A DNA stretch of 64,000 bases from an uncultured Flavobacteriaceae bacterium (lineage in GTDB: Bacteria > Bacteroidota > Bacteroidia > Flavobacteriales > Flavobacteriaceae), in NCBI GenBank assembly GCA_905479065.1, contig CAJQLB010000013.1, forward strand, positions 1 through 64,000, written 5' to 3'. This document shows, in pieces, positions 50,998 to 53,780 of the stretch; position 1 is the stretch's first letter; every line of letters starts with the position of its first letter. The notes under the pieces are model-generated. The model worked only from the letters and a program-made list of their open reading frames with translations. It was not told the DNA's origin and did no database searches. Made by a program: the position numbers and the translations under genes.

Positions 50998-52041
50998 TTA
51001 CTCAAAAGTAAGCATGGCAACAATGCCTCTTCCTGCAGCATAAGCCACATTGTTGTTTAAAAAACGTAACGTGTAGAAGCTTTGGTCGCTTAAGTGTGTC
51101 CAATTTCGCCCTCCATCTTTTGAATAATCAACACCCTTAAATCCAACTGCAACTAGTTCTTGTCCTTCTCCGTAAGGGACATATTGCACGCAACTTCGAT
51201 ACCCTGGTTCTTTATTAACACCGATAAGTTTCCAGGTTTTCCCACCATCACTTGTATACATTTTATTAGCAGACATATCGTCAGGTTTTGTGTAATCTCC
51301 ACCTATAGCAAATCCTAGTGAATCGTTATAAAAATCAATAGAATATATCCCAGTTGTTTCAGCTCCTTTAAGTATCGGAGTTTCATAAGCATTCCAAGAA
51401 ATCCCTTTATCAGGTGAATGAAAAATACGGCTTTGTTGTCCCCCTGTTGCAATCCATGTATCATTACCAACGATAGATATATTGGAATTACTCGCAGCGA
51501 ATGCAGCTTCACCATTAGCTGTTTCTGGCAACACATCACAGGACAATTTGTTCCATGAATCACCGCCATCTCTTGTTATAATAATACTCATACAATCGCC
51601 CGTGGGATCACCAACTGCAATACCCTCTAAATCATTCCAAAAAAGCATGGAGTCATAAAACACTTTGGGATGAATTTCTTTGTAGCATACTTTCATCCCA
51701 TTATTCGTTGTTTTAAACATGAATGCTGGAGTTCCAACACTTAACATTAAAAAATCTTTTTTAGTATGTGCAACTGCTCTAAAATTAAGCTCTAGGGAAT
51801 CTAATTTTTTTTTGGAGATCTTCCACTCTTTCGTAATAGGATTCATCAAGCCATAACTGTTGTTATTAGCTGCAAAAGCTAAACTTTTATCATCTAAAAT
51901 GTCTATTGCTCTAATACTCAATAATGAATCTTGTAACACGGGCTCTATAACTACGGATGTAAAAATACTGGACGTTTGTTTTTTTTCAGCTTTACAAGAA
52001 AAAAAAAGATAACAAAAAACAAAAAGTGTGACGTATTTCAT
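50998..52041 (-). CDS. YCF48/BNR-repeat lipoprotein
   Basis: 347 residues. Signal peptide with lipobox F-F-S-C (Cys16). The body is a beta-propeller built from repeats with BNR-type Asp-box cores: T-R-D-G-G-D-S-W near 159, S-P-D-K-G-I-S-W, T-S-D-G-G-K-T-W and S-K-D-G-G-R-N-W. Known: such propellers in YCF48/HCF136-like proteins assist assembly of other proteins; many in Bacteroidota are of unknown role and are labelled oxidoreductases without evidence. It is on the same strand as the broken SCO1-like gene, 73 bases downstream of it. Confidence 0.85.
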   Translation of the reverse strand: MKYVTLFVFCYLFFSCKAEKKQTSSIFTSVVIEPVLQDSLLSIRAIDILDDKSLAFAANNNSYGLMNPITKEWKISKKKLDSLELNFRAVAHTKKDFLMLSVGTPAFMFKTTNNGMKVCYKEIHPKVFYDSMLFWNDLEGIAVGDPTGDCMSIIITRDGGDSWNKLSCDVLPETANGEAAFAASNSNISIVGNDTWIATGGQQSRIFHSPDKGISWNAYETPILKGAETTGIYSIDFYNDSLGFAIGGDYTKPDDMSANKMYTSDGGKTWKLIGVNKEPGYRSCVQYVPYGEGQELVAVGFKGVDYSKDGGRNWTHLSDQSFYTLRFLNNNVAYAAGRGIVAMLTFE

Positions 52042-52113: not shown

Positions 52114-52542
52114 TCACGAAGACTTTTTCAATCGTGTAATATGTCGAATAAGTCTCTTGATATCAAGAGGAATAGTTCCGTTATACACGCCTCTGATATA
52201 CCCTAGCTTGTCAACCAGTACGAAGTTTTCTGTGTGAATAAAATCGTTCTCACTTTGTGTTTTGAGAAAATTTCCGTCAGCAAAATATCCAAATCTTGCT
52301 AAATCGTACAATTCATTCTTATTTCCCGTTAGAAGGTGCCATTTATCCTTGTCTATATCATGATCAAGACCGTACGAATTTAATTGATTGACATCATCAA
52401 TCCATGGCATTACCGTATGCGACACTAACATAATGTCTTCGTCGTTTTTATAATGATCTTGTAAAATACTCATATTACTTTCAAGCTTGGGACAGACTCC
52501 AGGACAAATCGTAAAAAAAAAATTTAATTCCCCATAAAAACT
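52114..52542 (-). pseudogene. 5'-truncated SCO1/SenC family gene
   Basis: The frame encodes the C-terminal ~140 residues of a SCO protein: F-F-F-T-I-C-P-G-V-C-P-K-L with both copper-binding cysteines (codons at 52504-52506 and 52492-52494), then V-S-H-T-V-M-P-W, the L-L-T-G-N-K segment, H-T-E-N-F-V-L-V-D and R-G-V-Y-N-G-T. The only ATG (52473) lies after the C-x3-C motif. Upstream the frame runs without a start codon into rsmB on the other strand; the expected signal anchor and ~80 N-terminal residues are missing. So this looks like a remnant unable to make a normal SCO copper chaperone. A non-canonical start cannot be fully excluded. Confidence 0.75.
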
Positions 52543-52550
52543 TACATTTG
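52543..52550 (+). promoter_or_regulatory. Probable -7 element of rsmB promoter
   Basis: TACATTTG (TAnnTTTG) ends 18 bases before the rsmB ATG. It sits at the point where the SCO1-like homology ends on the other strand. Confidence 0.5.
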
Positions 52551-52568
52551 CAATCTTAATACAGGAAC

Positions 52569-53780
52569 ATGCGATTACATAAGAATTTATGCTTTGCGAC
52601 CATCGATGGTTTAATGCAGATATTTAATGAAAAAGAATATGCTGACAAAGTGATTCAGAAGCTGCTTAAAAGAGATAAACGATGGGGTAGTCGAGATCGT
52701 GCTTTTATCGCTGAAACGACCTATGACATCGTGCGTTGGAAACGACTCTATGCTAAAATTGCCGACGTAAAAGAGCCCTATGATCGTGACAACTTATGGC
52801 GAATGTTTGCTGTTTGGGCTACTCTAAAAGGTATCAACTTACCAGATTGGAAATATTTTGAAAACACCCCTACTCGGAAAATAAAAGGTCGTTTTGATGA
52901 ATTATCAAAAGATAGAAGATTTAAAGAATCTATCCCAGACTGGATGGATGAGGTGGGATGTCAAGAGTTAGGAGAGCTAATGTGGGCAAAAGAAATTTCA
53001 AAACAAAACGAACAAGCTTCGGTCATTCTTAGAGTAAACTCACTAAAAACTAATAAAAAAGATTTGCAATTAAAATTGCAATCAGAAGATATTGAAACCG
53101 AGATGTTATCAAATTATCCTTTTGCTTTAAAACTTAAAGAAAGAGCAAATGTCTTTAAAACAGACGCCTTTAAAAATGGATGGTTTGAAGTTCAAGATGC
53201 CTCATCACAATTAGTAGCAGAATTTCTTGATGTAAAACCTGGGATGAAAGTTGTTGATACCTGTGCAGGAGCCGGTGGGAAAACATTACACTTAGCAGCA
53301 CTTATGAACAATACAGGTCAACTTACGGCGATGGATATTTATGAAAGTAAATTAAAAAAACTTAAAATTCGCGCAAGAAGAAATGGCGTACACAATGTTA
53401 CTTTGAAGGTTATTGATTCAACAAAACCTATTAAAAAACTTCACAATAAAGCTGATCGTGTGTTAATTGATGCCCCATGTTCAGGTTTTGGTGTTTTACG
53501 ACGTAATCCAGATGCCAAATGGAAACTCGAACCGGAGTTTTTGGACCGTATTCGAGATGTCCAAGGAGATTTACTTAAGCGGTACTCAAAAATTGTAAAA
53601 GAAGGCGGTAAACTCGTTTATGCAACTTGTTCAATATTACCATCTGAAAATCAACATCAAATAAAAAAATTCTTAGCATCTACTGAAGGAAAAGAGTTTA
53701 ACTTTGTAAAAGACCAAAGTTTGTTAGCACACAAATCAGGATTTGACGGTTTTTATATGGCCCTTTTAGAACGAAAATAG
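52569..53780 (+). CDS. rsmB: 16S rRNA (cytosine-C5) methyltransferase, RsmB/NOL1-NOP2 family
   Basis: 403 residues. An N-terminal NusB-like RNA-binding part starts M-R-L-H-K-N-L, the usual beginning in flavobacteria, so the start is secure. The SAM-binding domain has C-A-G-A-G-G-K-T near 234, D-A-P-C-S-G-F-G with the release Cys near 302 and Y-A-T-C-S-I-L with the catalytic Cys near 353. Exact rRNA target is inferred from family. Divergent from the SCO1-like remnant. Confidence 0.92.
   Translation: MRLHKNLCFATIDGLMQIFNEKEYADKVIQKLLKRDKRWGSRDRAFIAETTYDIVRWKRLYAKIADVKEPYDRDNLWRMFAVWATLKGINLPDWKYFENTPTRKIKGRFDELSKDRRFKESIPDWMDEVGCQELGELMWAKEISKQNEQASVILRVNSLKTNKKDLQLKLQSEDIETEMLSNYPFALKLKERANVFKTDAFKNGWFEVQDASSQLVAEFLDVKPGMKVVDTCAGAGGKTLHLAALMNNTGQLTAMDIYESKLKKLKIRARRNGVHNVTLKVIDSTKPIKKLHNKADRVLIDAPCSGFGVLRRNPDAKWKLEPEFLDRIRDVQGDLLKRYSKIVKEGGKLVYATCSILPSENQHQIKKFLASTEGKEFNFVKDQSLLAHKSGFDGFYMALLERK

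Follow-up and report, generated by a model that had tools for sequence, protein, structure and literature searches.

A probable recent 5'-truncated remnant of a SCO1/SenC gene next to rsmB in a Flavobacteriaceae genome

Results

A SCO1/SenC gene without its 5' part abuts rsmB

In the window, i.e. the whole stretch of 64,000 nucleotides that was analysed, a SCO1/SenC copper chaperone gene without its 5' part lies directly beside the divergent gene rsmB, Table 1. We consider it very probable, from the sequence comparisons below, that it is a recently 5'-truncated pseudogene. It looks like an ordinary and recent gene remnant; 5'-truncated pseudogenes are known as leftovers of deletions. One deletion of a few kb (3.0-9.1 kb separate the two genes in relatives) would have joined the upstream region of rsmB to about codon 74 of the SCO gene. 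It would have taken the promoter, the partner genes, the SCO signal or anchor, the linker and the first part of the thioredoxin fold. The remnant would be too young for stops to have accumulated, and copper delivery would fall to two complete SCO paralogues elsewhere in the genome.

Table 1. Features at the rsmB-SCO junction, in window positions.
Feature	Positions	Strand	Basis and remarks
rsmB, 16S rRNA methyltransferase	52569..53780	+	Pfam PF01189; open over full length, 403 aa
rsmB TANNTTTG-type -7 box TACATTTG	52543..52550	+	Pattern scan, alignments
Putative deletion junction zone	52513..52542	.	AT-rich; SCO homology ends at about 52524, followed by rsmB upstream DNA
SCO1/SenC gene remnant	52114..52524	-	Last ~136 codons and stop; open, no frameshift
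Copper-binding CxxxC motif (CPGVC)	52492..52506	-	Codon listing, TGT-CCT-GGA-GTC-TGT; ahead of the first ATG
First in-frame ATG	52471..52473	-	ORF list; a 119-aa protein from here lacks both cysteines
Distal His codon of the SCO copper site (FIHTENF)	52234..52236	-	Counted by hand on translations
YCF48/BNR-repeat gene	50998..52041	-	Pfam PF14870; downstream neighbour of SCO, retained from the ancestral order

On the minus strand, the frame runs without interruption from 52623 until its stop codon at 52114. According to Pfam, the reading of 52569-52117 matches PF02630 (SCO1-SenC) with an E-value of 2.7e-14 (53.7 bits, cut-off 22.8) over positions 26-131 of 134. The first 25 positions are gone, which leaves the thioredoxin-like fold incomplete, as read from the sequence alignment. 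Protein alignments to the orthologues start at codon 52524 or 52527, at about residue 74 of the orthologue from Flavivirga, and over the C-terminal half the remnant shares 59-67% identity with orthologues from 19 relatives. The preliminary description had let the homology run to about 52542; these alignments move the end to about 52524. rsmB starts at the very position, 52569, that it gave as the upper limit of the gene. What it had said of the rest of the frame agrees with our results: the motif and the C-terminal half are kept (Pfam match and codon listing), the 136 codons are open with neither stop nor frameshift, and there is no coding sequence upstream of the remnant for an N-terminal membrane anchor or lipoprotein signal.

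According to excerpts of PMC7558416, SCO proteins bind copper through a CxxxC motif and a distal histidine in a thioredoxin-like fold, which faces the periplasm and is tethered by one membrane segment; the same ligand set is found in excerpts of PMC3994876. The remnant keeps both ligands. Its CPGVC (52506-52492) aligns with the CPGICP of the orthologues, and the FIHTENF around the histidine (52236-52234) is the same in them. The intact Flavivirga orthologue matches solved structures with E-values of 2.4e-20 (4hde) and 9.5e-19 (1on4); in 11 of the 12 listed hits with SCO or similar names, the alignment starts at residue 46-51 of this orthologue, whereas the remnant begins at about its residue 74. 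Compared with the SCO1/SenC chaperones (PF02630; 4hde, 1on4, 1xzo), the remnant is alike in family, CxxxC motif, distal histidine and C-terminal half, but it lacks the signal or anchor, the linker, the first 25 domain positions and a usual start before the motif.

The first SCO-homologous codon and the start of rsmB are 45 bases apart, and a run of ten T occupies 52522-52513 of the minus strand within the junction zone. The promoter-like rsmB box TACATTTG is of the type of TANNTTTG, the -7 box consensus; in alignments, TANNTTTG is found at the equivalent position in two relatives (G020 and G022), Flavivirga and two congeners (G002 and G003). A gapless comparison of the DNA upstream of rsmB gave 7, 5, 7, 6 and 4 matches per ten bases with Flavivirga and 8, 6, 4, 5 and 2 with G020; the extract from G022, 9 bases, is too short for it. 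This is too weak for a base-level breakpoint or a microhomology, and on these alignments the putative breakpoint is not placeable to the base. At 52513-52550, the putative deletion lies near the rsmB -7 box, so that SCO coding sequence may now stand where rsmB once had its -33 region. No clear TTG is seen by eye at the usual distance.

Relatives carry a full-length gene in a conserved unit

The orthologues have 207 aa in G022, 211 aa in G020 and 210 aa in Flavivirga, i.e. about 73 N-terminal residues more than the remnant. We surveyed 397 sampled genomes of the family at a match threshold of E<=1e-40. Matches were obtained in 42 of them, the genome of the window included. The open frames of the 41 other homologues span 208-279 aa in 40 cases, and the last one (171 aa, G288) touches a contig edge. 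We inspected the N-termini of 28 of these homologues and of nine named loci. A longer N-terminus, lipoprotein-like by eye, is present in 27 of the 28 orthologues read; the remaining one is at a contig edge. A family of orthologues that share this short N-terminus would speak against a truncation, as the preliminary description had said; the 397 sampled genomes gave none.

Next to rsmB and in the opposite orientation, G022, G020 and Flavivirga jejuensis have in succession an ECF sigma factor gene, two small genes, a YHYH gene, a YwqK/MORN-like gene (its MORN_2 match is below the cut-off) and SCO. The block also holds an EF-hand gene and CotH in G022 and G020, and neither has a hit in Flavivirga. 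SCO is followed by YCF48 in G022 and Flavivirga, and no YCF48 hit was obtained at the SCO locus of G020. The YCF48 gene of the window is 52% identical to that of G022, 54% to that of Flavivirga and 64% to those of G002 and G003. We located rsmB in 19 of the 41 homologue-bearing genomes: in 15 of these, rsmB and SCO are divergent on the same contig, 3.0-9.1 kb apart, and in four (G337, G095, G386, G170) they are on different contigs. Of 38 loci compared, some from close relatives of one another, 37 have YwqK-like and YHYH genes ahead of SCO on its upstream side, and the exception is the locus at a contig edge. The unit lies at L115:2133-7687 in G022, L116:1612-7237 in G020 and L039:472-4414 in Flavivirga, and the Reichenbachiella locus (L114) is among the 37.

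By identity, the remnant is an orthologue of the SCO gene in this Flavobacteriaceae YHYH-YwqK-SCO unit (Flavivirga jejuensis KACC 14158, Aquimarina megaterium and, more distantly, Reichenbachiella versicolor). For G022, G020 and Flavivirga, the orthology is also given by the place beside rsmB. The window differs in that the partner genes and the 5' part of SCO are missing. The longer gene of the relatives, together with the several kb of other genes between it and rsmB, supports the recent 5' loss that had been suggested from the window.

No usual start or promoter for a copper-binding product

As had been stated, the sole ATG lies behind the motif (first ATG at 52473, motif at 52506-52492). 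A codon scan gave no in-frame ATG, GTG or TTG before the motif. The TTG at 52507 is out of frame, crosses the motif and meets a stop at 52483. A frameshift at the ten-T run, masking a start further upstream, was also considered and ruled out: in three frames scanned to 52800, every upstream ATG, GTG or TTG is stopped before reaching the run. Nor did a pattern scan of 52401-53000 give an exact TANNTTTG box on the minus strand. With neither a recognised promoter nor a usual start for a copper-binding product, it is improbable, judging by these scans, that the remnant is an expressed SCO protein.

A live gene that includes the motif would have to start at a rare codon. Such codons exist in frame and are open into the remnant and its motif (ATA at 52623 and 52590, ATC at 52575, ATT at 52560, 52554 and 52509). 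The product would lack a leader and stay in the cytoplasm, as a thioredoxin-like fragment that still carries the copper ligands, and selection would have maintained it from the time when the ancestor of the genus lost the operon. The survival of all 41 invariant residues (see below) favours this, and the absence of the operon from the congeners as well suits an old, common deletion. Against it stand the lack of an exact box and of usual starts, the missing first 25 Pfam positions, the membrane-tethered and periplasm-facing state of SCO proteins (excerpts of PMC7558416), the lack of any other short member among the 41 homologues save the contig-edge copy, and the interval of the congeners, which gives no SCO hit. 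We regard a live gene of this kind as very unlikely. The preliminary description had offered an odd start codon and a cytoplasmic, leaderless SCO as its alternative; the open rare codons speak for that part, whereas an exact promoter-like box, a usual start and a short relative are all missing. It is highly improbable that, after an old loss of the operon throughout the genus, the fragment was selected as a leaderless cytoplasmic copper or thiol protein with an ATT or other rare start. If true, this would be a SCO protein without an anchor or the start of its fold, unlike its 40 longer relatives.

The ATG at 52473 is a usual start codon with an open frame of 119 aa, and the C-terminal half that it covers is conserved, so a protein with a copper-independent role might be made from it. 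Such a protein would have neither of the copper-binding cysteines and no beginning of the fold, none of the 41 relatives is so short, and the ATG is an internal methionine common to the orthologues (KLTKNM). This reading appears extremely unlikely.

A clean frame limits the age of the putative truncation

The clean frame, in which none of the 41 invariant residues is changed, and the branch ratio given below, which is no outlier, count against a pseudogene. An alignment of 37 orthologues has 41 invariant columns; the remnant keeps every one of them, and there is no stop in its 136 codons. A further set of 60 columns, each conserved in 35 or more of 38 rows, shows four departures in the remnant and 0-5 in the other rows. 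Under a simple neutral model with the base composition of the window and kappa 2, the probability of keeping the 41 residues without a stop drops under 5% once 0.027 substitutions per site are exceeded; for stops alone, the limit is 0.135. Since the 41 residues survive without a stop, an unselected remnant would under this model be at most about 0.03 neutral substitutions per site old.

Among 20 sequences, the SCO of the window has the lowest mean identity (61.8%) and the longest terminal branch. Its SCO/rsmB branch ratio of 4.33 ranks 16th of 20 (range 0.83-8.58) and is no outlier; the ratio for the whole tree is about 2.7. A codon model with one ratio, fitted to the 20 sequences over 136 codons, was saturated, with the window branch at its upper bound. 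The rsmB of the window is 86% identical to those of G002 and G003, and the synonymous distances, 5.1 and 6.2, are saturated and mean only that the divergence is large. From the clean frame and the saturated rsmB it follows that the genus is much older than the truncation and the congeners had losses of their own, or else that selection maintains the fragment. We consider the young truncation far likelier, because a selected fragment would need a rare start and would have no anchor and an incomplete fold.

Genes of the operon are missing from the genome and its congeners

In G002 and G003 the gap between rsmB and YCF48 is 111 bp, and the stretches read around these genes hold no SCO at E<=1. 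The two draft genomes are 93% and 90% complete. A third congener, G001, is 62% complete, rsmB was not seen in it, and it says little. Genome-wide checks covered the YHYH, CotH and YwqK-like genes. YHYH is absent from the genome of the window (G000) and the three congeners, while the control, G020, was positive. A search for CotH, run without a control, was negative in all four. For the YwqK-like gene, G000 gave a weak match of 32% on contig C18 and nothing else. No match was found in plasmid records.

The first 83 residues of the G022 SCO were searched against G000 at E<=1. Besides the two paralogues, the six hits comprise four weak ones, among them the motif of the window itself, and on this search at E<=1 a transposition of the N-terminal part to another place was rejected. 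Because YHYH and CotH are absent, the YwqK-like gene has one weak match and the SCO N-terminus finds only these hits, we infer a single deletion at the locus. Like 5'-truncated deletion pseudogenes in general, the remnant has a single junction, open neighbours and a coding stretch without a start; it differs from them in that no decay is visible yet.

The junction could also be an assembly artefact, a misjoin of rsmB and SCO with the operon left in unassembled sequence. The genome is a draft of 48 contigs (97.87% complete), and the homopolymer of ten bases lies right at the junction. On the other hand, rsmB, SCO and YCF48 are arranged and oriented as in the relatives, the same two flanks are adjacent without the operon in G002 and G003, and YHYH was not found in G000 or its congeners. 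An artefact is therefore very unlikely.

As far as these genomes show, the genus no longer has the operon, which was lost in one old event or in separate ones. With both informative congeners lacking it, parsimony would favour one loss in the ancestor of the genus, and this counts against the recent truncation. A single ancestral loss would be too old for an open, unselected remnant, so that the preferred reading, a recent pseudogene, requires losses that were separate or came in stages.

Two complete SCO paralogues remain

The preliminary description had proposed a search for another SCO gene, and G000 has two complete ones, both on contig C15: one of 259 aa with CPTIC and one of 237 aa with CQTIC, lengths counted from the listed TTG starts. 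The 259-aa paralogue adjoins cytochrome-oxidase-like genes, according to our own reading of the neighbours. The other (G000:C15:155059-155460; L118:4838-5551) has CQTICP instead of CPxxCP and adjoins a FeoB-like gene, again by our own reading. A fourth PF02630 hit, on C38, was rejected as a SCO gene: it contains AACKPC and, by our own reading of the sequence, resembles a TlpA-type thioredoxin. Since two complete paralogues remain, copper delivery to the oxidase is probably unaffected by the loss.

Implications

A "SCO1/SenC" call on the 119-aa frame from 52473 would be wrong as an annotation of a copper chaperone. The remnant also points to the conserved YHYH-YwqK-SCO unit. A literature word search found no paper on this unit, nor any that pairs YHYH with SCO1 or CotH with YHYH; the YHYH domain led only to papers apparently on phages. 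Our guess is that the unit is a regulated extracytoplasmic copper or metal module. With two congeners that carry no trace of SCO at the locus, the remnant seems to catch the loss of this operon at an early stage.
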